Shown here one piece after another: positions 21,162 through 40,216 of a DNA stretch of 64,000 bases. The position numbers and the translations under genes were made by a program. Position 1 is the first letter of the stretch, and each line of letters starts with the position of its first letter. Source of the stretch: Rhodoferax sp. (lineage in GTDB: Bacteria > Pseudomonadota > Gammaproteobacteria > Burkholderiales > Burkholderiaceae_C); assembly GCF_028689295.1 (NCBI RefSeq), contig NZ_JAQTWL010000008.1, positions 62,001 to 126,000 of the forward strand. Reading direction: 5' to 3'. The notes under the pieces are model-generated. The model did not search any database. It saw nothing but the letters and a program-made list of their open reading frames with translations, and had not been told where the DNA came from.

Positions 21162-22859
21162 ATGATTATCGAAAAGAGTATTGTTCGACGCTACCTGGTT
21201 CTGTCGGTGATCGCGTCCACGCTGCCAGTGCTGGCGATTGGATTGATGTATGACCACTTCACCGGCAACGCATTGGAACAATTGCTGGGCGAGAAAATGT
21301 CCACACACCTGACGGCCACGGCAAATCGGTTGGGTGCCTATATCGAGTCGCGCCGTTATCAACTCGAAACGCTCGCCAACTACCCGGGTATTGATGAATA
21401 TTCCAGTTCAAAGACAAGCCAACCCAGCTCCGAGGTGACTGCCTTGCTGCAAATCGAATCGGATTTGCCAGACCTCTACGGCATTCTTTTTTTTGATGCA
21501 CAGGGCCGCCTGCAACGTGTGGTGCCGGGTCAGGCTGCGGCGGGGCCACCTTATTGGAGTGATCGCCCCTTTGAGACCAACAACCTGCCGGTCACGACCG
21601 TGGGAGAGACCCAAATTCTGGGCCCCGTGGCGGCACTTGACGGTGATTCGGGTTGGCTGCTGGTGCGCCACGCCCTGCACGCGCGGCAAGCGGATCAGAT
21701 TTCCGGCTACATCGCCTTGCACGTGCGTCTGGCCTCGCTCACCGAGCAACTCGGTGCCAATGCCGTGGCAGGCACCCTGCAGCCCTTGCTGCGCACGCCG
21801 GTAGGCAATTTCAATACGGTGGGTCAATCCAGCACCGTGCATGGCAAGGTGATCGTCGGCCCGGAAATTCTGCCTGGCTGGCAGCCGCTGCTTGAAGTCG
21901 AGTCAGACGGTGTACTCAAGTCCTTCGCACTGGAGCGGCGTGCCCTGCTGCTGGCCGTCATGGTGAGCGCAGTGCTGATCGTGTTCCTGTTCTTTCGTTT
22001 GTCCACACATCTGCGCTTTCGTATTGGCTTATTGCTGAGTGGCGTTGATGCCATTTCGTCGGGGCAACTTGCGCACCGAATTGCCGAGGAAGGCAGCGAT
22101 GAAATCGCCTCCGTCTCGCATGCCTTTAACGCGATGTCGGGCAAACTTCAGGAGTATCTGGCGCGCGCTGTGCATATGGAAAAGCTGGCCGTTCTGGGCG
22201 AATTTGCGACCGGGATCGCGCATGAGATTCGCAATCCTCTGGCCGCCCTCAAGACCAGCGCCCAAGCCCTGGCTAGACGTGAGCAAGACCCAAAACGGGC
22301 GCAACTTCTGGCCGAGATGGAAGGCGAAATTGACCGGCTTGCACGCGTTGTGAGCGATTTGGTTGACTTTGGACGTCCACGCCCCGCAGCCCCCGGTGTC
22401 GTGCTGGTTCGTGACTTGCTGCGCCGTGTGCTCCCGAGCATTGAACCCGAGGCACTACAGCGCGGTGTGCACCTGAGCTGCCAGGGAGATTCAGACCTGG
22501 AGGTGTGGGCCGACCCTGATCATTTACTGCAGATTGTGCTGAACCTAGCGCTCAATGCGGTTCAGGCCACGCCGCCAGGAGGAACGGTGGTGCTACGAGC
22601 TTTCGCGGCTGATGCACAGATTGCCATGGAAGTCAGCGACACGGGTTGTGGCATCCCCAAAGAATTGCTGAATCGTGTCAGTGACCCATTCTTTACGACC
22701 AAGACCCGGGGCGTTGGTCTGGGTTTGAGTATTTCCCGTCAGTTATGTGAACTCAACAATGGACAGATGTCGCTTGACAGTGCGCCCGGACACGGTACTG
22801 TGGTGCGTATCACCCTTCCTAACGCAAAATTCTTCCATGCCAACCATCCTGATCATTGA
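21162..22859 (+). CDS. Two-component sensor histidine kinase (NtrB/DctB-like)
   Basis: 565-residue membrane kinase: N-terminal transmembrane helix (LVLSVIASTLPVLAIGLMY), a periplasmic Cache-like sensor of about 220 residues, a second helix (LLAVMVSAVLIVFLFFR), HAMP, HisKA with GIAHEIRNPLAALKTSAQA (phospho-His), and HATPase with NLALNAVQA, DTGCGIP and GVGLGLSIS. All catalytic boxes are intact. It overlaps the sigma-54 response regulator downstream by 23 bases, so the pair is coupled. The periplasmic sensor suggests it detects an extracellular solute, plausibly the substrate of the transporter downstream. Confidence 0.92.
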   Translation: MIIEKSIVRRYLVLSVIASTLPVLAIGLMYDHFTGNALEQLLGEKMSTHLTATANRLGAYIESRRYQLETLANYPGIDEYSSSKTSQPSSEVTALLQIESDLPDLYGILFFDAQGRLQRVVPGQAAAGPPYWSDRPFETNNLPVTTVGETQILGPVAALDGDSGWLLVRHALHARQADQISGYIALHVRLASLTEQLGANAVAGTLQPLLRTPVGNFNTVGQSSTVHGKVIVGPEILPGWQPLLEVESDGVLKSFALERRALLLAVMVSAVLIVFLFFRLSTHLRFRIGLLLSGVDAISSGQLAHRIAEEGSDEIASVSHAFNAMSGKLQEYLARAVHMEKLAVLGEFATGIAHEIRNPLAALKTSAQALARREQDPKRAQLLAEMEGEIDRLARVVSDLVDFGRPRPAAPGVVLVRDLLRRVLPSIEPEALQRGVHLSCQGDSDLEVWADPDHLLQIVLNLALNAVQATPPGGTVVLRAFAADAQIAMEVSDTGCGIPKELLNRVSDPFFTTKTRGVGLGLSISRQLCELNNGQMSLDSAPGHGTVVRITLPNAKFFHANHPDH

Positions 22860-24228
22860 CGACGAACCCAGCCTCATCAGCTCCCTGACCTTTGCCCTGG
22901 AGGAGGAGGGCTACAAGGTCTATGGTGCGGGAACCGGGCATGACGGACTGCTGATGCTGTCGGAGGTGCAGCCGGATCTGGTGCTGCTTGACCTGCGCTT
23001 GCCCGATCTGACCGGCCTGGAAGTCCTGGAGGCGATGCAGCGTAAAGACGGTGTGCCGCAAGTGATCATGATTTCGGCCCACGGCGACACCCGCGCTGCG
23101 GTCAAGGCTGTAAAAATGGGCGCCGCAGATTACCTGACCAAACCCTTCGATCTCAACGATCTGCTACACACCATACTCACTGCGCTGGAACGCAGCCGCA
23201 TGGCCAGTGAAATCGATTTTCATCGACGGGCTGCGTTGCGCCATACCGGCTTGGTGGGTGACAGCGCAACCATGCGTGATCTGGCAGCGACTATCGCGCG
23301 CATTGCGGCCAGCAATACGGCACGCATCCTGGTGCTGGGGGAGTCGGGCACCGGAAAAGCATTGGTGGCTCGCGCCATTCACGCCGGCAGTACGCGTTCC
23401 GCCGGGCCGTTCATCGAGGTCAACTGTGCCTCGCTGCCGGAACAATTGATCGAGGCCGAGCTCTTTGGTGCTGCCAAGGGCGCTTACACCGGTGCGCACC
23501 AGCGTCGTGAAGGTTTGGTCACTCTGGCCGACAGAGGCACGCTGTTTCTGGATGAGATTGGAGAAATGCCCCTGGCCTTGCAGGCCAAGTTGCTGCACTT
23601 CATGGAAAATGGCCAATACCGTGCCATTGGATCGACCAGCCCACTGCAAGCCGATGTGCGCGTTGTGGCCGCCACGAATCGCGATCTGGCGCAGGAAGTT
23701 GCCGCCGGACGCTTTCGCGAAGACCTGTTCTACCGCATTAACGTCATCTGCCTGAAAGTTCCGGCATTGCGCAGTCGCGGCTCTGATGCCGTTCAATTGG
23801 CCGAACACTTTGCCCTGCGCTATGCCCACGAAGAAGGGGTAGCCGCCATCAGCATCGGCAAGGCAGCGCACGCGTTGCTGGCGGCCTACACTTGGCCAGG
23901 CAATGTGCGCGAACTGAAGAACCTGATTGAGCGATTGACCATTCTGTTTCCAGGTCAGGAAATCAGCGCGACAGAACTGCCTGCCGAGATTGCTGCCACT
24001 GACCACAGCAGCACGCGTACCACGCCGGGTGTCGCCTGCGGCGTGGCTGCACCAGCGCGGCCCGAGGGTGCTTCCATCGACGATACCCTGGCCGAGGCCG
24101 AACGCGAGTTGATACTCGCTACCCTGCGTGAATGCGGGGGTCACAAGGGCCACGCTGCGGATCGCCTCGGTATTTCACGCCACGCCTTCAAGCGGCGCTT
24201 GCAAAGGCTCGCTATTGACCCTCCCTGA
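22837..24228 (+). CDS. Sigma-54-dependent response regulator (NtrC/AtoC family)
   Basis: 463 residues from ATG 22837 (MPTILIIDDEPS). The receiver domain has the phospho-accepting Asp in LVLLDLRLPDLTG. The AAA+ domain has GESGTGKALVARAIH and a GAYTGA loop in place of GAFTGA, a tolerated F-to-Y change. The C-terminal Fis-type helix-turn-helix is HAADRLGISRHAFKRRL. It is coupled to the kinase gene. The gap downstream holds an inverted repeat and a sigma-54 promoter, so it very likely activates the transporter operon that follows. Confidence 0.94.
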   Translation: MPTILIIDDEPSLISSLTFALEEEGYKVYGAGTGHDGLLMLSEVQPDLVLLDLRLPDLTGLEVLEAMQRKDGVPQVIMISAHGDTRAAVKAVKMGAADYLTKPFDLNDLLHTILTALERSRMASEIDFHRRAALRHTGLVGDSATMRDLAATIARIAASNTARILVLGESGTGKALVARAIHAGSTRSAGPFIEVNCASLPEQLIEAELFGAAKGAYTGAHQRREGLVTLADRGTLFLDEIGEMPLALQAKLLHFMENGQYRAIGSTSPLQADVRVVAATNRDLAQEVAAGRFREDLFYRINVICLKVPALRSRGSDAVQLAEHFALRYAHEEGVAAISIGKAAHALLAAYTWPGNVRELKNLIERLTILFPGQEISATELPAEIAATDHSSTRTTPGVACGVAAPARPEGASIDDTLAEAERELILATLRECGGHKGHAADRLGISRHAFKRRLQRLAIDPP

Positions 24229-24277
24229 GCGGTATGCGCCCTCAGGTCTGAGCGGTTTTCGCTCAATTGGGCGCTCA
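24226..24277. promoter_or_regulatory. Candidate enhancer sites for the sigma-54 regulator
   Basis: TGAGCG-GTTTT-CGCTCA at 24249-24265 is a perfect inverted repeat. Further copies of the half site lie at 24226-24231 (TGAGCG, overlapping the regulator stop codon) and 24272-24277 (CGCTCA). The main repeat is centred about 130 bases before the predicted transcription start, the normal place for an RpoN enhancer. Confidence 0.6.
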
Positions 24278-24363: not shown

Positions 24364-24379
24364 TGGCATGATGCTTGCA
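24364..24379 (+). promoter_or_regulatory. Sigma-54 (-24/-12) promoter
   Basis: TGGCATGATGCTTGCA matches the RpoN consensus TGGCACG-N4-TTGCW at every strongly conserved base with exact spacing. Transcription should start near 24390, about 70 bases before the first binding-protein gene. It lies directly after a sigma-54 activator gene. Confidence 0.85.
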
Positions 24380-24462
24380 ATATGTCGATTGAGTGGCCCA
24401 CGATATCAGCGCGGTGAGTGATCACAAACAGCGCTGTTATGACCAAGCCACCAGAGGAGAAC

Positions 24463-25845
24463 ATGTTTCAGTCGATTCGTCCTGTCATCATCGGTGTCAC
24501 GCTCGTTCGCATAGCGCTGCGGCGCATTGCCTTGCCCGGCTGGATGCTGGTAGCGCTTTTCACTTTGGGCTGGCCTCTGGGGGCTGCAGCCCGCATCGAA
24601 TTTGGCGCACCAGCCCAAACTGCGGATGCCACCGTCGGCTGCATGTTTCCGTTGGGTGGCCGGGCTGCGATCTATGGCCGCGACAGCATCGCCGGCATGA
24701 AATTGGCCTTGGCCGATTTGGCAGCAGAACTCCCACTAGGAGCTGCACCCAGACTGCGTGTGCTGGTCGAGGACGATCGATCAAAAGCCTCTGTGGCGAC
24801 ACGGATTGCAGAGAACTTCATCACCCGGGACAAGGCGCGTTTTCTTTGCGGCATCGTCAGCTCCGGTGTGGCACAGGCTATCAGCCGCTTTTCGCGCGAC
24901 CACCAGGTCATCATGATCGGCACCGATCACGCCTCGTCACGCTTGACCATCGAGGACTTTCACCGCCACTACTTTCGGGTCTCCAACGATACCTACACAT
25001 CGATGGCGGCCGGCGCTCGTTATCTCGCCGATCTGCAGAAAAAGAACGGTTGGAAACGACTGGCCTTCATCGGCCCCGACTACGACTACGGTCATATTTC
25101 CTGGCGCGACCTGGAGGACGCCCTGTCCAGTCTGGACGTGCGCTACCAAGTGACAGGGCACCTTTGGCCGCGCCTGTATGAACCCGACTACACCGCCTAC
25201 GTCGCGGCACTGCTGGCGGCCAAACCTGACGTGGTGGTGGTAGCGTTGTGGGGTGGCGATTTCATCGCCTTCCTCAAGCAAGCCCTGTCATCCAGGTTGC
25301 TGGAAAAAACCAAACTGGTGAACTTCGATACCGGCGGCAATTACGACGTGCTGGAGTCTCTGGGTGAACAGGTACCCCCCGGTCTGATCCTGTCAGCGCG
25401 GCATCACAATAATTGGCCCGATACTGCCCGCAACCGCAAGTTCGTCAACGACTTCCACCAACTTGAAGGGCGCTTTCCGACCTATGCTGCCGAGGGCGCA
25501 TACGCTGGCATCATGGCCATCGCCCACGCCATGCGCATCGCAGGGCCTCATGCCAGCAACGATCAACTGATTCACGCCCTGGAGGGTTTGCAGTTGCCGC
25601 TGCCCAAAGACCCTGAGGGATTCACCTCACATATCGATGCGCAAACCCATCAAATTGTGCAAGTCCAGGCCATCGGCGAAGTGCTGCCCAATTCCGCCTT
25701 CCCACCGGCCAGGATCATGCTTGGCAACTGGGTGGTTTACCCGGCAGAAGATTTGCAACCGAGCCCCGATCTCATTCATGCCCGGCGCGCCCGTGCGCGT
25801 ACCGTTCCCAGCAGTTCCCCCGTTCCCAGTAACTCAACTAACTAA
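24463..25845 (+). CDS. Periplasmic binding protein, Liv type (Peripla_BP_6), first copy
   Basis: About 460 residues from ATG 24463, where GAGG lies 5 bases upstream; ATG 24439 is an alternative. A basic N-terminus and one hydrophobic segment (GWMLVALFTLGWPLGAAA) act as signal or anchor. The mature part starts in the style of branched-chain amino acid binding proteins (VGCMFPLGGRAAIYGRDSIAGMKLAL). It is the first gene behind the sigma-54 promoter and 14 bases before a second binding-protein gene of the same fold. The ligand is unknown, and the context suggests an organic acid or alcohol-derived solute. Confidence 0.85.
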   Translation: MFQSIRPVIIGVTLVRIALRRIALPGWMLVALFTLGWPLGAAARIEFGAPAQTADATVGCMFPLGGRAAIYGRDSIAGMKLALADLAAELPLGAAPRLRVLVEDDRSKASVATRIAENFITRDKARFLCGIVSSGVAQAISRFSRDHQVIMIGTDHASSRLTIEDFHRHYFRVSNDTYTSMAAGARYLADLQKKNGWKRLAFIGPDYDYGHISWRDLEDALSSLDVRYQVTGHLWPRLYEPDYTAYVAALLAAKPDVVVVALWGGDFIAFLKQALSSRLLEKTKLVNFDTGGNYDVLESLGEQVPPGLILSARHHNNWPDTARNRKFVNDFHQLEGRFPTYAAEGAYAGIMAIAHAMRIAGPHASNDQLIHALEGLQLPLPKDPEGFTSHIDAQTHQIVQVQAIGEVLPNSAFPPARIMLGNWVVYPAEDLQPSPDLIHARRARARTVPSSSPVPSNSTN

Positions 25846-25859
25846 CCAGGAGTCAATTC

Positions 25860-27158
25860 ATGTCAACCATTTTCCGTTTATCCACTCTGACCGCCGCCAT
25901 TGCGCTGGCAGCGGCTGCGACATCCACAAACGCTGCCGACAACGGCAAGTACCGCATCGGTGTTGTCACCTTCCTGTCGGGTGCCGCAGCCGGTCCGTTT
26001 GGCGTGCCCGCCGCCAATAGTGCCAAGTTGATGGTTGAGACTTTGAACAACAGCAAGGTTCCCGCACCCTACAGCAAGAAAGGTATCAACGGCCTGGAAA
26101 TTGAAATGGTGATGCTCGACGAAAGTGGTGGTGCAACCAAGCAGACCGAGGAGTTCCGCAACCTGGTTCAACGGCAAAAAGTGGATGCCGTGATCGGTTA
26201 CATCTCGTCTGGCGACTGTTTGGCCATTGCCCCCGCCGCTGAAGAGCTGGGTGTGCCGACCATTTTCTTTGACTGCGGGACATCCAAAGTCTTCGACGTG
26301 GTAAAGAATCCCAAATTCCTGTTTCGCACCGGCCTGGATGCGGTCGTGGACAACATTGCGGCAGCACGCTACGTAGCGGAAGCCAGGCCCAACGTGAAAA
26401 CCATTGCCAGCATCCAGCAAAACTATGCCTGGGGCCAGGAATCCTGGGCCGACTTTGCGCTGGCTTTCAGCCGTATCAAGCCAGAATCGAAAGTGGTGTC
26501 CGAACAGTGGCCCAAACTGGGACAAGGCCAGTACGGCGCCGAAATTTCCGCGCTTTCTGTGGCCAATCCCGACCTGATTCACTCCAGTTTCTGGGGTGGC
26601 GACATGGAGGCACTGATGTTGCAAGGAGGCGCGCGCGGCCTATTCGACAATAAAACCGTGGTGTTGACCGCCGGTGAGACTGGTATGGAACACTTCAAGG
26701 GCCAGGTCGCCAACGGCACCATCATCGGCGGGCGTGGTCCGTTTGGTGCTTTTTCGCCAAAAAATGCCTTGAATGACTGGTTCCGTCCGACGTTTGTGAC
26801 GCAATTCAAGGAGTCCCCGACCTACCCCGCCTACAAAATGGCGCAGGCCATCCTGGGCCTGAAGGCGGCCGCAGAGAAGAGCGCCAAGGCCGGGGCGATG
26901 CCCACCACTGATCAGGTCGTGAATGGCTTGACCGGACTGAGTTTTGAAGCCCCAAGCGGTACCGTCAACATGGCCCGTACCAAGGGCCATCAGGCGGTGC
27001 AAAGCGTGTCTTTTGGCGAGTACCAGTTTGATGCCAAGTCTGGCAAGGCCACGGTTGCCAAGGTCAAGACCTACGCCGGTGAATGTGTGATGCCACCGGA
27101 TGGCACCACCAGCGCCGACTGGATCAAAGCCGGTTTCCCTGGTGCTAAGTGCAATTGA
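25860..27158 (+). CDS. Periplasmic binding protein, Liv type (Peripla_BP_6), second copy
   Basis: 432 residues with a clear Sec signal (STLTAAIALAAAATSTNAA). The mature part begins KYRIGVVTFLSGAAAGPFGVPA, typical of Liv/amide-type solute-binding proteins. It diverges strongly from the preceding binding protein, so it is not a recent tandem duplicate. AGGAG precedes the ATG by 8 bases. The permease and ATPase genes follow, which makes this the more likely main receptor of the importer. Confidence 0.9.
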   Translation: MSTIFRLSTLTAAIALAAAATSTNAADNGKYRIGVVTFLSGAAAGPFGVPAANSAKLMVETLNNSKVPAPYSKKGINGLEIEMVMLDESGGATKQTEEFRNLVQRQKVDAVIGYISSGDCLAIAPAAEELGVPTIFFDCGTSKVFDVVKNPKFLFRTGLDAVVDNIAAARYVAEARPNVKTIASIQQNYAWGQESWADFALAFSRIKPESKVVSEQWPKLGQGQYGAEISALSVANPDLIHSSFWGGDMEALMLQGGARGLFDNKTVVLTAGETGMEHFKGQVANGTIIGGRGPFGAFSPKNALNDWFRPTFVTQFKESPTYPAYKMAQAILGLKAAAEKSAKAGAMPTTDQVVNGLTGLSFEAPSGTVNMARTKGHQAVQSVSFGEYQFDAKSGKATVAKVKTYAGECVMPPDGTTSADWIKAGFPGAKCN

Positions 27159-27236
27159 ACCCGTCATCACCACGGATGAAACTCCGTGTCCAAGGGCGAG
27201 GCGCAATGCCTCGCCCGCAAACGGTACTCAACGACT

Positions 27237-28139
27237 ATGACAACCTTACTCGCCATTCTGATTGACGGGGCCATCTACGCCTCCTGGCTGTTCCTCGTGG
27301 CCGCCGGCATGACCATCATTTACGGTGTCATGCGCGTGCTCAATATGGCCCACGGCAGCTTTTATGCGATTGGCGCCTATTCCGCGGCCTCACTCGTGAG
27401 CTGGTATTTCTCTGGTGAGCACGGCGACCCCTATTGGAGTTTTCTGATGCTGCCCGCATGCGCCATCGTGGCCGGTGCCATCATTGGCTTGGCGATTGAA
27501 CAGGGGCTGCTGCGTTTCCTGCATGGACGCGATGAAATTTTAATGGTGATCGTCACCTATGCACTGCTGCTCATTCTGGAGGACGCGACCAAGCTGATAT
27601 GGGGCGTGAATCCCTATTTCGCCTACCAGCCCTACAAGCTGTTGGGGCAGACAGCGTTTGGTTCCAATCTGCGCTTTGCCAACTACGACCTGATGTTGAT
27701 CGGGGTCGCGATCGCGGTTGGCCTGGCCGCCTGGGCCGCGCTGAACCGCACCAACAAGGGCCGATTGTTGCGCGCCGTGATTCACGACCGCGAGATCGCC
27801 ATCGCCATGGGTGTCAACGTGAACGCCATGTTTGCCGCCACATTCGCCATTGGTGCAATCCTGGGTGCACTGGCCGGGGCGCTCACCGCGCCCGCGATTT
27901 CGGTGTCGCCGGGCATCGGTGTTGAAGTCATTGTGCTGGCCTTTGCGGTGATCGTGATCGGGGGGTTGGGCAGCATCGGCGGGGCCGCCGCTGGTGCGGT
28001 GTTGGTAGGCCTGGCTCGCTCCTTTGCTGTGCATATTGCGCCTGAGATTGAGCTGTTCGTCATCTACGGTGTGATGTTCCTGGTGCTGGCCATCCGTCCG
28101 CAAGGGCTGTTCGGTCAAACCTTGGCCCGGAGAATCTGA
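27237..28139 (+). CDS. ABC importer permease, LivH type
   Basis: 300-residue inner-membrane permease from ATG 27237 (MTTLLAILIDGAIYASWLFL). It shows the LivH signature GVMRVLNMAHGSFYAIGAY and the loop IHDREIAIAMGVNVNAMFA that contacts the ATPase. Eight or so hydrophobic segments. It ends one base before the LivM-type gene. Part of the Liv-type transporter whose substrate is not known from sequence. Confidence 0.92.
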   Translation: MTTLLAILIDGAIYASWLFLVAAGMTIIYGVMRVLNMAHGSFYAIGAYSAASLVSWYFSGEHGDPYWSFLMLPACAIVAGAIIGLAIEQGLLRFLHGRDEILMVIVTYALLLILEDATKLIWGVNPYFAYQPYKLLGQTAFGSNLRFANYDLMLIGVAIAVGLAAWAALNRTNKGRLLRAVIHDREIAIAMGVNVNAMFAATFAIGAILGALAGALTAPAISVSPGIGVEVIVLAFAVIVIGGLGSIGGAAAGAVLVGLARSFAVHIAPEIELFVIYGVMFLVLAIRPQGLFGQTLARRI

Positions 28140-29102
28140 ATGTCATTCCCAAAGTTTTCTTCTTCATCGACCATGCCGGCGTTACTGCTTGTGGCTGCCG
28201 TGTTTGTTGCCGCTGCCTGGGTCATCCCGGCCTGGATGGCCTTCTTGCTCACCCTGGCGTTGGCCAAGGCCCTGGTAGTGCTGGGGGTAGTGATCCAGAT
28301 GCGTGCGGGTCTGGTCTCGTTCGGTCAGGCACTGTTCTATTGCATCGGCGGTTACGGTGTCGGACTGGCCTCGCAATATCTGGGTGTCGGTGATGCCTTC
28401 GTCTTGTTGGCGCTGGGCACCGTGGCTGCAATTGCGCTGGCGCTGCTTTGCGGTTGGCTGCTGACGCGCTACCGTGAAATTTTCTACGCCATGCTGACGC
28501 TTGCCCTGTCGATGATTCTGTATGGCGTGCTGGTCAAGTCATCGGCACTGGGTTCCACCGATGGTTTCAACGTGTCGCCACCGAGCTTTTTAGGCTGGGT
28601 TCCTGAGGGCGATGCCCGCAAGCGCACGCTGTATTTAATGACGGTCGTGCTTGCCACACTGGCTGCAATGGGCTTTCATCGGTTTATGGTTTCCAGCCTG
28701 GGGCGGGTCACCGAGGCCGTGCGCGAAAACGAGATTCGCGTCGAATATCTGGGCCTTTCACCCCAGCGCATGCTTTTTGCGAACTACGTGCTGGCCGCCG
28801 GCGTGTCGGCTCTGGGCGGTGGTCTTACCGCTCTGGCCAGCGGCCATATCGACCCCGATATGGCGTTCTGGACCACCTCGGGCGAATTCGTGTTTATCGC
28901 CATTCTGGGTGGCACCGGTCATGTGGCGGCACCCTTCATTGGTGCCATTGTGTTCTCGGTGGTTCGCACCTTCGCCATCCAGGAGGCACCCAACACCTGG
29001 CAAATGACGCTGGGCATTGTCCTGTTGGCGCTGGTGTTGTTCTTGCCCAAGGGCTTGTGGAGTCTGGTGGAACGCAGCAAGAAGCGGGGGGCCTCAGCAT
29101 GA
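28140..29102 (+). CDS. ABC importer permease, LivM type
   Basis: 320-residue second permease subunit. The LivM-like pattern ALVVLGVVIQMRAGLVSFGQ, the coupling loop VRENEIRVEYLGLSPQRMLF and FIAILGGTGHVAAPFIGA are visible. It begins right after the LivH-type stop and overlaps the next ATPase gene as ATGA. Confidence 0.92.
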   Translation: MSFPKFSSSSTMPALLLVAAVFVAAAWVIPAWMAFLLTLALAKALVVLGVVIQMRAGLVSFGQALFYCIGGYGVGLASQYLGVGDAFVLLALGTVAAIALALLCGWLLTRYREIFYAMLTLALSMILYGVLVKSSALGSTDGFNVSPPSFLGWVPEGDARKRTLYLMTVVLATLAAMGFHRFMVSSLGRVTEAVRENEIRVEYLGLSPQRMLFANYVLAAGVSALGGGLTALASGHIDPDMAFWTTSGEFVFIAILGGTGHVAAPFIGAIVFSVVRTFAIQEAPNTWQMTLGIVLLALVLFLPKGLWSLVERSKKRGASA

Positions 29103-31715: not shown

Positions 31716-31803
31716 ATGGAGTGTGGGGGCGCGTTGGTTCGCCGCACCATAGAACACAAAGAACAAGCCAACATCAACGGCAAATCAACCTTAAGGAGAT
31801 AGC

Positions 31804-32667
31804 ATGAAGTCAAGTAAGCTGAAGTTGTATAAACGCTGGGCGGCAGGTGCCGTTCTGGCCTCCATGCTGGCGGTGCCGGTGGCCGCGCAGCAACTCTACG
31901 TATTCACGTCCGGCTCGTTGGGCGGCTTTGCCAAAGCTGCTTTCCAGGCCGGCGCATCGGGCACGGTCGACTGGTGTCCGGTCGGCTTCTATGTCTTCAA
32001 ACATCCGAACGGCAGTGTGATATTCGACACCGGCATCAATGACAAAGCGATCGTCGATGGGGAGGGCTGGCTGGGTCCGCTGAACAAGGGCTTCGGCGTG
32101 AAACTGACCAAGGACCATGCGATTCCGGTGCAACTGGCAAAGATTGGTCTGACGCCCAAGGACATCAGGTACGTGGTGACCAGTCACATGCACTTTGACC
32201 ATGCCGGCAACATCTCGCTGTTCCCCAATGCCACCCATATCGCGCAAGAGGAAGAGTTCAAGGCTGCCCTGTTTCCAGACCATCCTTTCCAAGCCTTCTA
32301 CATGGCGGGTGACTTTGCCGGCATGAAGCAGCAAAACACCATCATGCTCAACGGGGACCTTGACGTCTTCGGCGACGGCACGTTCCGCATCATGAAGGGA
32401 ACTGGTCATACCAAAGGAAGCCAGTTTGCCGTGGCCAAACTGCCCAAGACCGGAACCGTGGTCCTGACTGGCGATGCGGTCTACCTGAAAGAGAATCTCG
32501 ACAAGAACATTCTCCCCCCACTGTCTGGCGCCACCAATCAGATCGAGGGTTACAAGACCTACCAGCGTATCCGTCATATCCGCGACTCGGAAAATGCCCA
32601 GATTTTCTACGCTCATGATCCGGACGCTTACAAGGTCACCAAGCAGGCGCCTGAGTTTTACAACTAG
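31804..32667 (+). CDS. Secreted AHL-lactonase-family metallohydrolase (AttM/BlcC-like)
   Basis: 287-residue MBL-fold hydrolase. Residues 1-29 form a signal peptide ending AVPVAAQ, unusual since AiiA and AttM/BlcC are cytosolic. The lactonase hallmark CPVGFYVFKHPNGSVIFDTG precedes the dinuclear zinc motif HMHFDH (128-133), with the remaining ligands in GTGHTKGS, TGDAVY and YAHDPD. The stretch AVYLKENLDKN resembles the AiiA segment containing its active-site Tyr. It probably opens a lactone in the periplasm. Whether the natural substrate is gamma-butyrolactone, an AHL or another lactone is open. AAGGAG precedes the ATG. Confidence 0.87.
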   Translation: MKSSKLKLYKRWAAGAVLASMLAVPVAAQQLYVFTSGSLGGFAKAAFQAGASGTVDWCPVGFYVFKHPNGSVIFDTGINDKAIVDGEGWLGPLNKGFGVKLTKDHAIPVQLAKIGLTPKDIRYVVTSHMHFDHAGNISLFPNATHIAQEEEFKAALFPDHPFQAFYMAGDFAGMKQQNTIMLNGDLDVFGDGTFRIMKGTGHTKGSQFAVAKLPKTGTVVLTGDAVYLKENLDKNILPPLSGATNQIEGYKTYQRIRHIRDSENAQIFYAHDPDAYKVTKQAPEFYN

Positions 32668-32677
32668 TCTTGCATCT

Positions 32678-32713
32678 GCTACCCACCGCGGCCGGACCGC
32701 TGCGGTGGGTAGC
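32678..32713. terminator. 12-bp perfect hairpin between lactonase and exporter genes
   Basis: GCTACCCACCGC (32678-32689) pairs fully with GCGGTGGGTAGC (32702-32713) around a 12-base loop. There is no T run. It could attenuate transcription into the downstream membrane module or stabilise the upstream message. Confidence 0.5.
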
Positions 32714-32726
32714 TTGCAGCCTTCCC

Positions 32727-33440
32727 ATGAATACACTTCCCGTTCCTGCTGTCAGCATTCGTGGCGTGACGAAGCGCTACGGTGCGGTGACGGCGCTGGC
32801 AGGGCTTGACCTGACCATCGCTCAGGGCGAGATCGTCTGCCTGCTTGGCCCCAACGGTTCTGGCAAGACCACCTTGATTCGCCTGCTAAGCGGCTTTCTG
32901 AGTCCCGACAATGGTCAGTTGCAAGTGGCAGGTTTTGACGTCCAACGCCAACCAATGCTGGCGCGCCGGTGCATTGGTTATGCCCCCGAGTCTGCGCCCA
33001 TGTACCGACATATGCGGGTCGGCGAGTTTCTCACCTTCATGGCGCGATTGCGCCAGGTGCCAACGCACAAAGTACGGGAAGCGGTGGAGCGAGTAGCCGA
33101 GCAGCTGGAGCTGACTGACAAGTTGCAAGCACCAGTGCCAACTTTATCGCGCGGTTACCGGCAGCGGGTGTGCATCGCGCAATCCCTGCTGCACGAACCC
33201 CAATTGCTAATTCTTGACGAGCCGAGCAACGGACTCGATCCACGCCAGATCATCGAAATGCGCCACCTGATCCGATCGCTGGCCACCAAACATACGGTCT
33301 TGATGAGCTCGCACATTCTGGCCGAAGTGGCCAAGACAGCTGACCGGGTAGTCGTGCTGATGGCCGGGAAACTGAAGGGCGAACGCCAGGTCAACGCCGA
33401 GGATACCGATTTTGAGCCCTGGTTCCTGTCACTGGCCTGA
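32727..33440 (+). CDS. ABC transporter ATPase (NatA/GldA-like)
   Basis: 237 residues from ATG 32727. Walker A GPNGSGKTT, signature in LSRGYRQRV, Walker B LLILDEPSNGLDP and the switch His in VLMSSHILAE. The sequence GYAPESAPMYRHMRVGEFL is typical for ATPases paired with ABC-2 permeases (GldA, NatA, CcmA class). It is followed by an ABC-2 permease, a Gldg protein and a DUF4340 protein, which together form one module. Confidence 0.9.
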   Translation: MNTLPVPAVSIRGVTKRYGAVTALAGLDLTIAQGEIVCLLGPNGSGKTTLIRLLSGFLSPDNGQLQVAGFDVQRQPMLARRCIGYAPESAPMYRHMRVGEFLTFMARLRQVPTHKVREAVERVAEQLELTDKLQAPVPTLSRGYRQRVCIAQSLLHEPQLLILDEPSNGLDPRQIIEMRHLIRSLATKHTVLMSSHILAEVAKTADRVVVLMAGKLKGERQVNAEDTDFEPWFLSLA

Positions 33441-33452
33441 GCACCCAATGCC

Positions 33453-34154
33453 ATGCACCCCTTCATTGTCCTGACCCGAAAAGAACTCAGCGCGGCGCTG
33501 CTCTCACCGATCGCCTACATCGTCGCAGCGGTGTTCTTGCTGGTGCTGGGTTACACCTTCAGCCTCACGCTCTTTGCCACCAAGGTGGCGAACCTACAGT
33601 ACATTTTTCGCCAAATCTATGTGCTGTCGATCCTGCTCGTCCCGGTGCTGACGATGCGTGCTTTCGCCGAAGAACGGCGTAGTGACACGCTGGAATTGCT
33701 GCTGACGACACCGATCGCCGAAGTCTGGATTGTGTTGTCCAAGTACATCGCTTTGATGGTGGTGGTGCTGTCCATCTATGCCCTGTCAAGCGTCTACGCC
33801 TTGCTTTTGGGGTGGTTGGGAGAGCCTGACTGGGGACCGATCCTGACCGGTTACGCCACGCTCGTACTGCTGGCCAGTTTACTGGTATCCGTTGGTGTTC
33901 TGGCCTCCAGTCTGACAGAAAATCAGGTTATCTCAGCCGCCTTGTCGATGGGCATATTCCTGATGCTCTGGTTTGCCGATTCGGTGACACCGATGTTGCC
34001 CATTGCGCTTCAGCCCGTGGCTCTGAATCTATCATTGATCGGGCACTTCAAGCCGCTGGTCACTGGCTCGGTTTTTCTGTCGGATGCCATGTACTTTGTC
34101 AGCATCACGATGGTGGCGATCTGGTTGGCCAGCCGACGTCTGGCAGACAGGTAA
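33453..34154 (+). CDS. ABC-2 type permease (GldF-like)
   Basis: 233-residue membrane protein with about six hydrophobic segments. It begins LTRKELSAALLSPIAYIVAAVFL and has the ABC-2 pattern RAFAEERRSDTLELLLTTPI. It follows the ATPase gene by 12 bases and precedes the Gldg-family gene by 5. In Flavobacterium GldA-GldF-GldG act in gliding. The proteobacterial version has no known substrate. Confidence 0.9.
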   Translation: MHPFIVLTRKELSAALLSPIAYIVAAVFLLVLGYTFSLTLFATKVANLQYIFRQIYVLSILLVPVLTMRAFAEERRSDTLELLLTTPIAEVWIVLSKYIALMVVVLSIYALSSVYALLLGWLGEPDWGPILTGYATLVLLASLLVSVGVLASSLTENQVISAALSMGIFLMLWFADSVTPMLPIALQPVALNLSLIGHFKPLVTGSVFLSDAMYFVSITMVAIWLASRRLADR

Positions 34155-34159
34155 GCACC

Positions 34160-35647
34160 ATGCCCTTATTCATCAATTTGTTGGTTGTGCTGGCTCTGGC
34201 CGTGCTGTTCACAGCCGGCCTGCGCGCGCCGCTGGGCCCGCGGAGCTGGCGTGTGGCAGTGCAGTTGCTGGGCCTGGCACTGGCCGTGCTCGTGGCCGCG
34301 CTGGCCAACGTCGTGTCCTACCGCAACGATCAGCATTTCGACATCACGATGGAAGAGGCCTTCACGCCGGCAGCCGAGACGCTACAGGTTCTGCGCGACC
34401 TGAAGCAGGATGTGGAGCTGATTTATTTCTACCATGCCCAGAACCCCGCGGGTCTTGCCGCCAAGCAGATGGTGGAGATCATGGGCAAGGTGACACCCCA
34501 CCTCAAGGTGCGCACCATCGATCCCGACCAGCAGCCAGCACAAGCCAACGAGTACGGGATGCGCATGTACAACGTTGCCCTGATGATCGCCGACGGGCGA
34601 CGCATCGAGGTGATCACCACTGAAGATCGCGAGATGGCATTGGGGCTCCTGCGTTTGCTGCGCAGCGACAAGCGACCGGTCTGTTTTCTCAGCGACCACG
34701 GGGAATACGACATTGACAACTTCGAGTTTCACACCCACTTTGAGGGTCCAGGCAGCAACCACGCCCACGACGCTGCCGGACAGGGCATCGTGGATATGAC
34801 CCAGCATGGCTTGGGTCGGTTGCGCCGCGCCCTTGACAAGCTCGGTTACGCCGTGCGCAAGCTGTCGCTGGCAACCGGCGCTTCCGGTGATGGGCAGGGC
34901 GTACCGGCTGATTGCGCCGCCCTGGTGGAAGCGAATCCGCGCACGCCCTTCGCGCCGCCCGAGGTGGCTCTGTTGGCTCGATACCTCGAAGGCGGTGGCA
35001 ATTTATTGATGCTACTGGAGCCCGACTACGCCGTGGGGACCGAGCTGGCGGCCTTGTTAGCGCAGGCCGGCGTGCGTGTCGGCAACGGTGTTGTGGTCGA
35101 CCCGACCAGTCACTATTTCACCGATGCACAGATGGTCGCAGTCGAGAAGTACGCGAGCCACCCCAGCACTGGCGGACTGTCCCTCAGCTTTTTCCCCGGA
35201 ATTCGGCCATTGCAGGTGGTGGCAGCTGGGGGTGTCAAGTCCGGCGTGCTGTTTTCCAGCAGCGCGCAAGCCACGGTCACCACGCGCGACCCATCGATTC
35301 ACCTCGATGCCTCCGCCCAGATACCCGGCACACGCGCGCTGGCCCTCGTCAGTGAAGGTCAACTGGCCGGCAAAGGAAAACCCTTTCGTCTGGCCGTGCT
35401 GGGCGATGCCGACTTCGCCAGCAATTCGTTCTATCCGTATCTCGCTAACGCTGATCTGGTGCTGGGGCTCACCGCCTGGTTGCGCGGCGAACCTCGCGGC
35501 CCCGCGATCAAGCCGCCAATGGAAGTCATGCCCACCGTGGTGATGACAAAATCACAGATGCAGATGGTATTCATTTTGTGTGTGATGCTGATACCCGGCT
35601 TGTGTGCCCTGGCCGGGCTGGCAGTCTGGTGGCGGCGGCGGCAATGA
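34160..35647 (+). CDS. Gldg-family ABC auxiliary protein
   Basis: 495 residues. N-terminal transmembrane segments (LFINLLVVLALAVLFTAGL and a second), a large periplasmic region with the ABC_transp_aux/IFT52-like features (YHAQNPAGLAAKQMVEIMGKV, CFLSDHGEYDID) and a C-terminal transmembrane helix (VFILCVMLIPGLCALAGLAVWW) ending RRRQ. The stop overlaps the next start as ATGA. It is the expected partner of the ABC-2 permease; its molecular role is unknown. Confidence 0.85.
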   Translation: MPLFINLLVVLALAVLFTAGLRAPLGPRSWRVAVQLLGLALAVLVAALANVVSYRNDQHFDITMEEAFTPAAETLQVLRDLKQDVELIYFYHAQNPAGLAAKQMVEIMGKVTPHLKVRTIDPDQQPAQANEYGMRMYNVALMIADGRRIEVITTEDREMALGLLRLLRSDKRPVCFLSDHGEYDIDNFEFHTHFEGPGSNHAHDAAGQGIVDMTQHGLGRLRRALDKLGYAVRKLSLATGASGDGQGVPADCAALVEANPRTPFAPPEVALLARYLEGGGNLLMLLEPDYAVGTELAALLAQAGVRVGNGVVVDPTSHYFTDAQMVAVEKYASHPSTGGLSLSFFPGIRPLQVVAAGGVKSGVLFSSSAQATVTTRDPSIHLDASAQIPGTRALALVSEGQLAGKGKPFRLAVLGDADFASNSFYPYLANADLVLGLTAWLRGEPRGPAIKPPMEVMPTVVMTKSQMQMVFILCVMLIPGLCALAGLAVWWRRRQ

Positions 35648-36177
35648 AACGCATCGTTTGGGTGCTGGCGGCCTTGGTCTCATTGGCAGTGTTGGCAGTG
35701 CTGGCTTTTCAGGGCCCCGATCGACGTCAATCGCTGGTCGAACACCAGGCCGAGGGCAAGATGAAGCACTTGGCCACCGATAGCGTCACGAGCGTGCGCG
35801 CCAGCTCCAGCGCTGGCACACACTACTTTAAGCGTGCTGCTGATGGGCAATGGTTATTGAGCCGCCCAGCGGCCGATGCTGGCGTTTCGGCTGCCACTGG
35901 TGCAGCGATTGAAGCCGGGCTTCGCCTGCTGCACAACACCTTGCCTGAGCGCAATTTCGAGACCGAAATACCCGAGTTTGGTCTATCCGCCCCAGTCCTT
36001 GAACTGGCATTGCAAACCGTGGATGGCCAGTCTTTTGAGGCCACCTTCGGTGCCACCAACCCCATGGGTATCGCCCAATACGTGCGGATCCGATGCGGCG
36101 GTCAAACCACAGTGCACTTGATGCCAACTTACGTTGCCCAGGCCTGGGCGCCCACGCTTGGAGGCGTTGCAAAATGA
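35644..36177 (+). CDS. DUF4340-like periplasmic protein
   Basis: 177 residues from ATG 35644. One N-terminal membrane anchor (VWVLAALVSLAVLAVLAF), then a soluble domain with FKRAADGQWLLSRPAADAGV and FEATFGATNPMGIAQYVRI, the style of DUF4340 proteins that follow Gldg genes. It is shorter than many DUF4340 members. It overlaps the neighbours on both sides by ATGA. Confidence 0.7.
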   Translation: MKRIVWVLAALVSLAVLAVLAFQGPDRRQSLVEHQAEGKMKHLATDSVTSVRASSSAGTHYFKRAADGQWLLSRPAADAGVSAATGAAIEAGLRLLHNTLPERNFETEIPEFGLSAPVLELALQTVDGQSFEATFGATNPMGIAQYVRIRCGGQTTVHLMPTYVAQAWAPTLGGVAK

Positions 36178-37301
36178 GCGGCCCAAGGGGACCTTTCAGG
36201 CGGGGATATTGGCTGTTGTTGACCTTGCTGGGGTTGGTTCTGGCGGGTGGGCCTGCGTCGGCGCACACCAACAGCACCGGCCTCGCCCGCCTCGAGTTCC
36301 AGGGCACTGAAGCGCATTACCGGCTGACGCTGTCACCAACTGAGGTCGGAGATGCAGCCATCTTGGTGCAGCGTGGCGGCGCCGGTGATGTCGACGCCGC
36401 CCAACAGGTTATGGCGGTATTGCAAAAACACCTGACCTTGAGCGTCGATGACAAGCGGTGTCGCGTTAAACGCAGCCGAATCCAAGCTCCGAAACTCGGT
36501 ACCGACCAGGTAACGCTGCTGCTCGACTGGCAGTGCACCAACGCGCCCGGCATGCTAGTGTTGCAAGACACCTTGAGCACTGCCTTTGGCGAGCATTACC
36601 GCAGCATTGCCAGCATCAGCCGATCTGCCGATCCTGAAGCTCAAATCGCATCCGGGGCAGACGGGGAAGACGGGGCGGTCAGTCGGCGCCAGGAGCACAT
36701 TCTGGACCGTGAACACCCGCAGGTCCGCATTGACTTTGGCCAGGCAGCGCGAAGCAGCCTGGGTGGCTTCCTGCGGCTCGGTCTGGACCACATTCTGAGC
36801 GGCTTTGACCACCTGTTATTCCTGGCTGCGCTATTGTTGGGCAGTCGCAGTCTGCGTTCACTGCTGATTACCGTCACCGCGTTCACCGCCGCGCACAGTC
36901 TGAGTCTGGCGGCGGCGACGCTGGGCTGGTTGCACGTTGCGGGCACCTGGGTCGAGCCAGCCATTGCGGCCTCCATTGTCTGGGTGGCGGTGGAAAACAT
37001 CTGGCTGCAGCCGCACCCACTGCGCCGCCACGCGCTGACGTTTGGCTTTGGCTTGGTGCATGGTCTGGCTTTCGCCGAGGCGCTGACTGAGCTGCACCTG
37101 AGCGGCTGGCCTTTGGCGCGCGCTCTGTTGGGCTTTAACGTGGGTGTCGAAACCGGCCAGGCGCTGGTAGTTTTGTTGCTAGCCCCGGCGTTGACCTGGT
37201 TGGCGCGACACCCTGTCGGCCCCCATATCGCCCGTGCACTGTCACTGGGCATTGCCTCAATGGGGCTGGTATGGGTAGTGCAACGGCTGGCGCAGTCCTG
37301 A
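36174..37301 (+). CDS. HupE/UreJ-family membrane protein
   Basis: 375 residues from ATG 36174. Signal peptide (LLLTLLGLVLAGGPASAHT), a soluble extracytoplasmic domain of about 180 residues, then a C-terminal bundle of six or so helices with the HupE/UreJ_2 histidine motifs GFDHLLFLAALLLG, FTAAHSLSLAAATLG and GLVHGLAFAEAL. HupE/UreJ relatives carry nickel or other metals. Here it is coupled by ATGA to the DUF4340-like gene, not to hydrogenase or urease genes, so its role is unclear. Confidence 0.82.
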   Translation: MSGPRGPFRRGYWLLLTLLGLVLAGGPASAHTNSTGLARLEFQGTEAHYRLTLSPTEVGDAAILVQRGGAGDVDAAQQVMAVLQKHLTLSVDDKRCRVKRSRIQAPKLGTDQVTLLLDWQCTNAPGMLVLQDTLSTAFGEHYRSIASISRSADPEAQIASGADGEDGAVSRRQEHILDREHPQVRIDFGQAARSSLGGFLRLGLDHILSGFDHLLFLAALLLGSRSLRSLLITVTAFTAAHSLSLAAATLGWLHVAGTWVEPAIAASIVWVAVENIWLQPHPLRRHALTFGFGLVHGLAFAEALTELHLSGWPLARALLGFNVGVETGQALVVLLLAPALTWLARHPVGPHIARALSLGIASMGLVWVVQRLAQS

Positions 37302-37378
37302 CACTTGATACGGCAATAACCTCATTCGCGAACAACAACTTTTTTGACTTTTTTTGACCATTAACCTGGAGTAATCTC

Positions 37379-38839
37379 ATGATGCAACTCAAAGACCCCA
37401 CCCTGCTACGCCAACAAGCCTTTATCAACGGTCAATGGTGCGATGCCGACAGCGGCGAAACCTGTGCCGTGACCAATCCGGCCACTGGCGAGACGATTGG
37501 CACTGTGCCCAAAATGGGCACCGCAGAAACCCGTCGTGCGATCGCTGCCGCTAACGAGGCCTGGCCTGCCTGGCGCGCCAAGACCGGCAAAGAGCGCAGC
37601 GCCGTGATACGCAAATGGAACGACCTGATGCTGGTCAACGCCGACGATCTGGCCATGATCATGACTATCGAACAGGGTAAACCTCTGGCTGAAGCCAAGG
37701 GCGAAATTGCTTATGCAGCATCGTTTATCGAGTGGTTTGCCGAAGAGGCGAAGCGGGTCAGTGGTGACACACTGGCCTCTCCCTGGACCGATCGGCGCAT
37801 CGTGGTCATCAAACAACCCATTGGGGTCTGTGCCGCCATTACGCCGTGGAATTTCCCATCATCCATGATCACCCGCAAAGCTGGCCCGGCGTTGGCTGCA
37901 GGTTGTCCGATGGTGTTGAAACCAGCGCTGGCCACACCTTATTCGGCGCTGGCGCTGGCAGTGCTGGCCGAGCGCGCTGGCGTACCGCCTGGTATCTTCA
38001 GTGTCTTGACCGGGTCTGCCAGTGCCATTGGCGGCGAAATGACCGCCAACCCTACGGTGCGCAAGCTGTCGTTCACCGGCTCCACCGATATTGGCAGCAT
38101 GCTGATGCAGCAATGTGCCAAGACCATCAAGAAGTTGTCATTGGAACTGGGCGGCAACGCGCCCTTTATCGTGTTTGACGATGCCGATCTGGACGCAGCG
38201 GTCGAGGGCGCCATCATGTCCAAGTACCGCAACGCCGGCCAAACCTGCGTCTGTGCCAACCGTTTGTATGTGCAAGACGGTGTTTATGACGCTTTCGCCG
38301 CCAAATTAGTCGCCGCAGTCGAAAAGCTCAAGGTCGGCAACGGTGTTGAAGCAGGTGTCACGCAAGGGCCCTTGATTGACGGCGCTGCCATTAAAAAGGT
38401 AGAAGAGCATATTGCCGATGCGCTGGCAAAAGGTGGGCGACTACTCACCGGTGGCAAACGCCATGCGCTGGGACACAGTTTCTTCGAGCCGACCGTGATC
38501 GCTGATGCCACGCCTGACATGTTGGTGGCGCGCGAGGAAACCTTTGGCCCGCTGGCTCCGTTGTTCCGGTTCAAGACCGATGCTGAAGCGATTGCCATGG
38601 CCAACGACACCGAGTTTGGACTGGCCAGCTACTTCTATTCGCGCGACATCGGCCGCATCTGGCGCGTTGGCGAAGGCATTGAGAGCGGCATGGTAGGTAT
38701 CAATACTGGTATTATTTCTAACGAAGTTGCACCCTTTGGCGGGGTCAAACAATCCGGGTTGGGCCGCGAAGGTTCCAAGTACGGCATGGACGACTACCTG
38801 GTCATCAAATACCTATGCATGGGCGGGTTGGACAAGTGA
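37379..38839 (+). CDS. gabD: Succinate-semialdehyde dehydrogenase (NADP+), GabD type
   Basis: 486 residues, close to E. coli GabD along its whole length (FRQQALINGEW-like N-terminus, GKPLAEAKGEIAYAASFIEW, GINTGIISNEVAPFGG). The catalytic Glu is in SLELGGNAPFIVF and the Cys in NAGQTCVCANRLYVQDG. It oxidises succinate semialdehyde to succinate, entering the TCA cycle. A GGAG precedes the tandem ATGs at 37379/37382. As the third BlcABC-like activity it is best read as the final step of the cluster's pathway. It is separated from hupE by 77 bases and may have its own promoter. Confidence 0.93.
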   Translation: MMQLKDPTLLRQQAFINGQWCDADSGETCAVTNPATGETIGTVPKMGTAETRRAIAAANEAWPAWRAKTGKERSAVIRKWNDLMLVNADDLAMIMTIEQGKPLAEAKGEIAYAASFIEWFAEEAKRVSGDTLASPWTDRRIVVIKQPIGVCAAITPWNFPSSMITRKAGPALAAGCPMVLKPALATPYSALALAVLAERAGVPPGIFSVLTGSASAIGGEMTANPTVRKLSFTGSTDIGSMLMQQCAKTIKKLSLELGGNAPFIVFDDADLDAAVEGAIMSKYRNAGQTCVCANRLYVQDGVYDAFAAKLVAAVEKLKVGNGVEAGVTQGPLIDGAAIKKVEEHIADALAKGGRLLTGGKRHALGHSFFEPTVIADATPDMLVAREETFGPLAPLFRFKTDAEAIAMANDTEFGLASYFYSRDIGRIWRVGEGIESGMVGINTGIISNEVAPFGGVKQSGLGREGSKYGMDDYLVIKYLCMGGLDK

Positions 38840-40211: not shown

Positions 40212-40216
40212 AGCGC

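Follow-up and report, generated by a model that had tools for sequence, protein, structure and literature searches.

A candidate blcABC relative with its own importer and sigma-54 control, combined with a lactonase cassette, in a Rhodoferax genome

Background

The blcABC (attKLM) genes turn gamma-butyrolactone via 4-hydroxybutyrate and succinic semialdehyde into succinate, according to two reports (PMC5924552, PMC3907764), which also tie an ABC importer, the Bra/Atu2422 system of Agrobacterium tumefaciens, functionally to blcABC, although its ligand is gamma-aminobutyrate (GABA) and its locus lies apart. Here we compare with these systems an operon of about 17.7 kb (21162–38839, all genes on the + strand) in a 64,000-nucleotide stretch, referred to as the window, of a 3.49-Mb Rhodoferax sp. 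genome (G000, C26:62001-126000). Like blcABC with its regulator BlcR, the locus holds within one operon a succinate-semialdehyde dehydrogenase (SSADH, here GabD), an iron-containing alcohol dehydrogenase (FeADH) and a hydrolase of the N-acyl-homoserine lactone (AHL) lactonase superfamily; the FeADH is 54–56% identical over its full length to the alcohol dehydrogenases of Rhizobium and Agrobacterium blc-type operons, and GabD 66–67% identical to its counterparts. Unlike blcABC, which is under the IclR-type BlcR, it has genes for sigma-54 two-component control, it includes an importer, and its lactonase carries a signal peptide (read by eye) and sits under the AttM cut-off; no IclR domain was found in the proteins scanned between 19743 and 42885. 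On balance, we consider it probable that the locus combines a blcABC relative, coupled to import and under sigma-54 control, with a periplasmic lactonase cassette; we infer substrate and activity from gene comparisons.

Related arrangements occur in rhizobia. In Rhizobium leguminosarum and R. johnstonii (pPR4, pRL10), genes for a periplasmic binding protein (PBP) and LivHMGF, 47–58% identical in R. johnstonii, stand beside SSADH, FeADH and AttM genes, although with an IclR regulator and divergent transcription, and the AttM start of R. leguminosarum CC283b is without an evident signal peptide. Plasmid pC of Sinorhizobium meliloti LMB1 (NZ_CP141215) carries a kinase, a regulator, two substrate-binding proteins (SBPs), LivHMGF, FeADH, a metallo-beta-lactamase-fold (MBL) protein and SSADH in the order of the window, together with the operator motif described below; identities are 31% for the kinase (annotated as an ATP-binding protein), 43% for the regulator, 49% and 50% for the SBPs, 51–57% for the importer, 51% for FeADH and 63% for SSADH. 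It differs in that its MBL protein belongs to another subfamily (best model AidB, 142.1/360; score pairs here and below are NCBIfam bit score and curated cut-off) and did not match the lactonase of the window above 100 bits, and in that no GldAFG, DUF4340 or HupE genes lie on the stretch. An earlier reading of the window from its letters and open reading frames, the first-pass annotation, knew of no described system composed like this operon; the near-complete counterpart in S. meliloti LMB1 shows that the composition is not unique. By best NCBIfam match, three further genes of the window are of the GldA-GldF-GldG transporter type of Bacteroidota gliding, but they fall below the curated cut-offs and are joined to lactonase, DUF4340 and HupE genes. 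A published description of either of the two modules delimited below was not found in the open-access literature searched.

Two modules within one operon

The comparisons indicate that the 17.7-kb stretch is a composite of two modules and not one unit, because a cassette lying between FeADH and GabD is missing from four of six related operons of the genus and is conserved elsewhere without FeADH (27 loci). Gene families and order, their conservation, the operator pattern, the presence or absence of the cassette and the SSADH assignment are established by computation, the genes being defined from the list of open reading frames (ORFs), Pfam and NCBIfam. The order is kinase, sigma-54 regulator, two binding proteins, LivHMGF-like importer, FeADH, lactonase, five envelope genes and GabD, and G036, another genome of the genus, keeps this order. 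The features are as follows.

21162..22859, +, membrane histidine kinase (Pfam HAMP, HisKA, HATPase_c; N-terminal region without Pfam match)
22747..24228, +, sigma-54-dependent response regulator, AtoC/NtrC-like (receiver, AAA+, Fis helix-turn-helix; annotated start provisional)
24249..24265, no strand, putative enhancer (upstream activating sequence, UAS) TGAGCGGTTTTCGCTCA, inverted repeat TGAGCG-N5-CGCTCA
24364..24379, +, sigma-54 promoter-like site TGGCATGATGCTTGCA, 11/12 to consensus, 115 bp past the UAS start
24418..25845, +, periplasmic binding protein 1 (PBP1), Peripla_BP_6; start probably further downstream
25860..27158, +, periplasmic binding protein 2 (PBP2), Peripla_BP_6, putative transport receptor
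27186..28139, +, importer permease, LivH/UrtB-like (Pfam, NCBIfam)
28140..29102, +, importer permease, LivM/UrtC-like (Pfam, NCBIfam)
29099..29878, +, importer ATPase, LivG/UrtD-like (ORF from 29057; the presumed start overlaps the LivM stop)
29875..30528, +, importer ATPase, LivF/UrtE-like (Pfam, NCBIfam)
30561..31715, +, FeADH, BlcB/AttL-like, candidate 4-hydroxybutyrate dehydrogenase
31711..37360, +, lactonase cassette, missing at the equivalent site in G015, G073, G045 and G053
31804..32667, +, exported MBL-fold protein, AHL-lactonase superfamily, candidate ring-opening hydrolase
32727..33440, +, GldA-like ABC ATPase (ORF from 32670; later start presumed)
33453..34154, +, GldF-like ABC-2 permease (Pfam, NCBIfam)
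34160..35647, +, GldG-like protein (PF09822, IFT52/GIFT-like)
35644..36177, +, DUF4340-like protein (below the Pfam cut-off, 21.5/25; start presumed)
36174..37301, +, HupE/UreJ_2 protein (exported N-terminal domain and membrane domain; start presumed)
37379..38839, +, GabD succinate-semialdehyde dehydrogenase (NCBIfam cut-offs passed)

Taking the internal ATGs at 35644 and 36174 as starts gives 4-base overlaps, as read from the sequence, at the GldG/DUF4340 and DUF4340/HupE junctions. The kinase, regulator, receptors, importer, FeADH, lactonase-family hydrolase and GabD named in the first-pass annotation are all present on the + strand, and its "membrane module" can be specified as the GldA-, GldF- and GldG-like ABC genes with the DUF4340 and HupE/UreJ_2 proteins. 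What it called a Liv-type importer with two receptors is complete by Pfam for the HAAT (Liv/Urt) family (SBP, two BPD_transp_2 permeases, two ABC ATPases), but all four permease and ATPase subunits score higher on the Urt (urea) than on the Liv models, and none reaches the cut-off (UrtB 166.5/250.3, UrtC 118.3/296.2, UrtD 175.4/304.1, UrtE 183.3/285.8). Its GabD-type SSADH is confirmed by the NADP-SSADH equivalog NF008415 (863.3/828) and by TIGR01780 (737.2/646.35). The likeness to blcABC holds in part, through FeADH and GabD (54% and 67% identical to the pair in the R. leguminosarum IclR-SSADH-FeADH-AttM operon) and through importer relatives beside blcABC-type genes; the hydroxybutyrate reading of the catabolic half is partly supported by comparison. 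For FeADH itself the picture is mixed: an A. fabrum BlcB has nearly its NCBIfam profile, but no BlcB model is among the matches of either protein, and closer plasmid relatives of FeADH (66–69%) stand in other contexts.

In module A, PBP1 would serve as sensory receptor for the kinase and sigma-54 regulator, which would activate the operon via a sigma-54 promoter and enhancers of the form TGAGCG-N5-CGCTCA; a small hydroxy acid would enter through PBP2 and the Urt/Liv-type ABC transporter, and FeADH would turn it into the semialdehyde and GabD the semialdehyde into the dicarboxylate, most likely along the path from 4-hydroxybutyrate through succinic semialdehyde to succinate. In module B, which separates the FeADH and GabD genes, an exported hydrolase from the AHL-lactonase superfamily would work with a GldA-GldF-GldG-DUF4340-HupE envelope complex, opening in the periplasm a lactone such as gamma-butyrolactone, and its product would feed module A. 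The substrate, the ring opening, sensing by PBP1 and the part played by the GldAFG, DUF4340 and HupE proteins are inferred.

Importer, FeADH and GabD

PBP2 was searched in 72,556 plasmid records, 50 of which matched at E 1e-40 or better, and co-location with lactonases was read from this list against one of AttM-type lactonases (60 of 111 records). Of the 36 plasmid records with a PBP2 relative at least 40% identical, 28 have an AttM-type lactonase no more than 6.4 kb away, and five of the six records opened among these 28 have PBP-LivHMGF, IclR and SSADH-FeADH-AttM genes, two of them with an insertion sequence (IS) element between IclR and PBP. In five Rhizobium/Sinorhizobium plasmids (L223, L229, L231, L236, L237), an annotated homoserine O-acetyltransferase gene follows attM. 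The other eight of the 36 records include S. meliloti LMB1, Comamonadaceae OTU4NAUVB1 and Acuticoccus. Also among these eight, a Methylorubrum DM4 plasmid has the order PBP-LivHMGF-FeADH-SSADH, the importer locus of Qingshengfaniella includes a zinc-type alcohol dehydrogenase (Zn-ADH) and that of Thermus Zn-ADH-SSADH. Below 40% identity, aldehyde dehydrogenase, SDR and MBL genes lie past the importer in Chelatococcus (PBP2 34%), and a plasmid of Bradyrhizobium sp. 195 has an importer relative (PBP2 32%) together with the lactonase cassette. Near the Methylorubrum extorquens DM4 locus (p1METDI, L225), positions 4248–6340 hold phasin and polyhydroxyalkanoate (PHA) depolymerase (phaZ) genes, a possible link to poly-4-hydroxybutyrate. 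Within the genus (89 genomes, G000 included), PBP2 was found in 15 at 1e-60, six of them at least 80% identical; genome searches scored only the best few candidates per genome, and misses are possible.

Twelve loci hold the kinase, the regulator and PBP1 (window, G036, S. meliloti LMB1, L249–L257). An alcohol dehydrogenase follows the importer in ten of them, of the Fe type in six (window, G036, S. meliloti, L249–L251) and of the Zn type in four (L252, L254, L256, L257), while SSADH was seen in seven and an exported MBL in three. L253 and L255 are exceptions: their fetched 20-kb stretches contain no importer, and permease and AMP-binding genes come after L255. The enzyme counts point to import and alcohol oxidation as the core and to the lactonase as optional, and on these comparisons the importer belongs with the catabolic half.

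Pairs of FeADH and GabD without Liv genes also occur (L196–L200), two of them with another MBL gene directly upstream. Other FeADH homologues in the genus, 79–88% identical (L192, L195, L201, L202, L204), stand without importer or adjoining GabD and have two-component genes about 0.5–3 kb off; an SDR gene precedes FeADH in L195, and the L192 kinase is RisS-like. GabD of G000 is 99% identical to that of G015 and only 67% to that of G036 (L103:3119-4564), whose importer and FeADH show a closer match; this looks like an exchange of the SSADH gene.

Putative sensor, operator and promoter

The kinase is AtoS-like by NCBIfam, under the cut-off (213.4/646), and is 73% identical to that of G036 and 31–44% across ten further loci; the regulator is 74% identical to its G036 counterpart and 43–58% across the other loci. 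A profile search with PBP1 at E 1e-80 matched 8 of 398 genomes of a phylum sample and 3 of 399 of an order sample, each count including G000, which leaves nine further genomes (7 of 397 and 2 of 398 others, respectively). PBP1 and PBP2 are 28% identical. In the loci examined, PBP1 was seen only alongside the kinase-regulator pair, and PBP2 also occurs in importer loci that yielded no PBP1: on the contigs seen, the G045, G053 and G073 importer loci have neither PBP1 nor the pair. Because PBP1 and the pair occur together and are absent together from these PBP2-bearing loci, PBP1 is probably the receptor of the sensor and PBP2 that of the transporter.

The inverted repeat TGAGCG-N5-CGCTCA occurs with at most one mismatch in 11 of the 12 kinase-regulator-PBP1 loci (not L253), paired at 23–41 bp in nine of the 11 and single in the window and L251; G036 has an exact copy and S. 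meliloti LMB1 two 1-mismatch copies. Seven loci have it where the regulator and PBP1 genes meet (window, L249–L252, L256, L257). In G036 and S. meliloti it falls in the PBP1-PBP2 gap, in L254 upstream of PBP2, which is placed apart there, and in L255 at the PBP1 end. In 20 control loci without the kinase-regulator pair, two copies were found in a total of 351,608 bases, neither upstream of an importer, some of these loci (e.g. L187, L227, L228) not containing the region upstream of the importer. Genome-wide at one mismatch, G000 has 17 copies against 8 for a backwards-pattern control, and at two mismatches the window holds 7 against 4.8 expected, not above chance. Because of the genome-wide counts a single site proves little, and the case rests on position and conservation. 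Sigma-54 sites were scored out of 12 against a consensus. A site scoring at least 11, as in the window, arose in 1 of 1200 random placements; a second such site (11 of 12) lies at 41496, inside the gene at 39713–42163, and shuffled 64-kb sequences average 0.63 of them. Sites scoring at least 10 of 12 follow the operator within 320 bp in six of the 11 loci (window, G036, L249, L250, L251, L256), against 16 of 1200 random placements.

The putative exported lactonase and its cassette

Described at first as an AHL-lactonase-family hydrolase, the window enzyme does belong to that superfamily and has its active-site residues intact, but it is not AttM proper: it scores 167.2/390 on the AttM model, on which R. 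johnstonii AttM scores 479.7, and is about 34% identical to AttM. Residues H128, H130, D132, H133, H202, D224, Y227 and H271 are invariant in 12 aligned lactonase rows, and this HxHxDH motif with the following H, D, Y and H matches the dinuclear zinc MBL active site of the superfamily. The best PDB sequence match is an N-acylhomoserine lactonase (3.4e-38), the closest named relative found is from Rhodoferax sp. MAG_33 (91%), and in the genus four of the 89 genomes match at 1e-20, with only G000 and G036 above 90% identity. The signal peptide noted earlier was read by eye, as a hydrophobic N-terminus ending in A-Q in all 12 rows, the window included; the N-terminus of the S. meliloti LMB1 MBL, SRRSLLALGGG, reads as a twin-arginine translocation (Tat) signal. 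Two different exported lactonase-like MBL proteins of a single superfamily in one slot are the best evidence for the periplasmic ring-opening step proposed in the first-pass annotation. The native substrate of the lactonase may differ, because the enzyme falls below the AttM cut-off and the cassette has other neighbours elsewhere.

The GldA-, GldF- and GldG-like proteins score 217.5/402.6 (TIGR03522), 117.2/288.5 (TIGR03518) and 24.5/389.85 (TIGR03521), all below the cut-offs. The HupE/UreJ protein matches PF13795 with 150 bits against a cut-off of 24.5, and its H206, D212 and H213, invariant in 63 aligned rows, form an H-x5-D-H motif that we take to be the metal motif (HX5DH) of HupE/UreJ. 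Its structure model, with a predicted local distance difference test score (pLDDT) of 89.4, consists of a mixed alpha/beta exported domain and a helical membrane domain. As a guess of low confidence, the GldAFG, DUF4340 and HupE proteins might supply metal to the periplasmic hydrolase or form an energised envelope scaffold for it.

By blastn, the match between G015 and the window (84–88% DNA identity) stops at 31710 and resumes at 37361. FeADH is directly followed by GabD in G015, G045 and G053, and in G073 the contig end matches the GabD start about 230 bp past FeADH; the cassette is present in two of the six Liv-FeADH-GabD operons of the genus and missing in the other four. Counting 26 other lactonase matches at E 1e-60 and the Bradyrhizobium plasmid, and excluding L112 (G073 C213, a 31% MBL without cassette), there are 27 other cassette loci, all with the order lactonase-GldA-GldF-GldG; DUF4340 was found in 22 by tblastn plus L111 by Pfam and HupE in 18, several contigs being short. 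FeADH was found in none of the 27, within fetched stretches of mostly about 10 kb each side and less on short contigs, and one locus holds an aldehyde dehydrogenase 34% identical to GabD. The first-pass annotation had proposed a self-contained system and a synteny survey for the full set; this survey does not uphold the single system, the lactonase joining a GldAFG-type cassette in loci without FeADH, and the full gene set does not co-vary.

Eighteen of the genomes, probably Alphaproteobacteria, come from a single order in a different class of the same phylum. In 10 of these 18 the cassette comes after a PF04199-type cyclase gene, with a divergent CobW gene in the same 10, and in 12 of 18 a class C beta-lactamase-like hydrolase follows it, these families having been assigned by Pfam for a few of the 18. 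The loci with both cyclase and CobW are L132, L137, L140–L144 and L146–L148, and a PF04199 cyclase also stands beside the Zn-ADH of the import operon in L254. Liv sets adjoin the cassette in a Bradyrhizobium plasmid and in G226 as well. In the operon tree, (((G000,G015)100,G073)62,G036)100,(G045,G053), the cassette bearers G000 and G036 are not sisters, which agrees with two acquisitions as well as with a single gain followed by two losses.

Alternative explanations

Several results weigh against an import-coupled blcABC relative joined to a lactonase cassette. The 28 plasmid records are mostly close Rhizobium/Sinorhizobium relatives and not independent events; four of them have a partial PBP match (63%), and the sixth record opened, one of the partial matches, holds an IS element and a short SBP gene but lacks Liv genes on the stretch, its importer looking broken. 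Importer relatives in Comamonadaceae OTU4NAUVB1 and Acuticoccus stand without ADH or SSADH genes, and that of A. rubi (PBP2 32%) without ADH/SSADH, aldehyde dehydrogenase, SDR or MBL genes. The likeness of GabD to blc SSADH is unspecific, ordinary plasmid gabD genes reaching 70–76%, and FeADH is present in 26 of 89 genus genomes at 1e-60, several fetched copies lying beside other genes. The operator occurs 13–28 times per genome in 12 genus genomes (backwards control 6–14), with copies also in genomes without this operon, and no good sigma-54 site was found in S. meliloti LMB1 (best 6/12). The company that the cassette keeps elsewhere (cyclase, CobW and beta-lactamase-like genes) is a further point of this kind, as are two FeADH relatives: the nearest on a plasmid (69%, Azospirillum) lies among thiolase, MaoC and SDR genes of beta-oxidation type, and one of 66% in Cupriavidus basilensis adjoins an aldehyde dehydrogenase and the glutarate dioxygenase GlaH. 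Both relatives would suit an operon that serves another omega-hydroxy acid or a diol (5-hydroxyvalerate to glutarate semialdehyde and glutarate, or 1,4-butanediol), with gamma-butyrolactone incidental. The same can be said of Zn-ADH replacing FeADH in four kinase-regulator loci (the two scanned with NCBIfam are NDMA-ADH-like, below the cut-off) and of an Fe-ADH of Pseudomonas putida that is reported to be induced on 1,4-butanediol (PMC7090098). With GabD passing the SSADH cut-offs and 28 of 36 plasmid records linking the importer relatives to AttM-type lactonases, we regard such another substrate as fairly unlikely.

It is also unlikely that two unrelated systems merely share a transcript, the cassette (with an envelope or metal-handling function, or opening the ring of another compound) having landed here by chance and having no role with hydroxy acids. 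That explanation would account for the 27 loci without FeADH, for the cyclase, CobW and beta-lactamase-like flanks (10, 10 and 12 of 18) and for the four of six related operons without the cassette, but it fits poorly with a not closely related exported MBL in the equivalent S. meliloti LMB1 slot, with the cassette beside Liv sets in the Bradyrhizobium plasmid and G226, and with its being kept at one and the same site by two genomes with non-sister operons. A lactonase acting as a secreted quencher of AHL quorum signals, independently of the catabolic genes, is quite improbable: the nearest solved structures by sequence are AHL lactonases, and BlcC cleaves both gamma-butyrolactone and AHLs (PMC5924552, PMC3907764), but BlcC supports growth on gamma-butyrolactone and not on the AHL OC8HSL (PMC3907764), and FeADH, GabD and the importer would not be needed for AHL degradation. 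Least credible, and to our mind very improbable, is FeADH as an ErcA-type regulatory protein of quinoprotein alcohol oxidation. ErcA is its best NCBIfam match (NF041833, 294.3/550), but this identity was rejected, as the BlcB annotated beside blcR in A. fabrum gives a nearly identical profile (ErcA 290.2); GabD follows FeADH in related operons, and no quinoprotein gene was found among the scanned operon proteins, the whole genome not having been searched.

Implications and neighbouring genes

If the locus is indeed such a blcABC relative with a periplasmic lactonase cassette, lactone and 4-hydroxybutyrate use would not be limited to the three-gene blcABC route, scattered proteobacteria would possess a version with sensing, import and an operator of its own, and ligands could be predicted for binding proteins that at present bear branched-chain amino acid transport annotations. 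It is quite possible, if somewhat short of probable, that two undescribed conserved modules are joined here, a two-component, operator-defined, import-coupled counterpart of blcABC in which a dedicated sensory receptor adjoins the transport receptor, and a periplasmic ring-opening hydrolase wired to a GldAFG-type ABC/HupE envelope machine, which would make the first step extracytoplasmic and the uptake ATP-driven and ligand-sensed. The link between an exported enzyme of the AHL-lactonase superfamily and a GldAFG-like ABC complex is recurrent, and proteins annotated as "N-acyl homoserine lactonase family" beside GldAFG-like genes may have catabolic or envelope functions.

Just upstream of the kinase, positions 19743–20930 encode a BktB beta-ketothiolase scoring over the equivalog cut-off. 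Directly after GabD, at 39006–42885, lie genes for NnrS, a PilJ-domain NarX/NarQ-like kinase and a NarL-like regulator; G015 (L187) has these three after GabD as well, so that they may belong functionally with this operon or with nitrogen oxide respiration.

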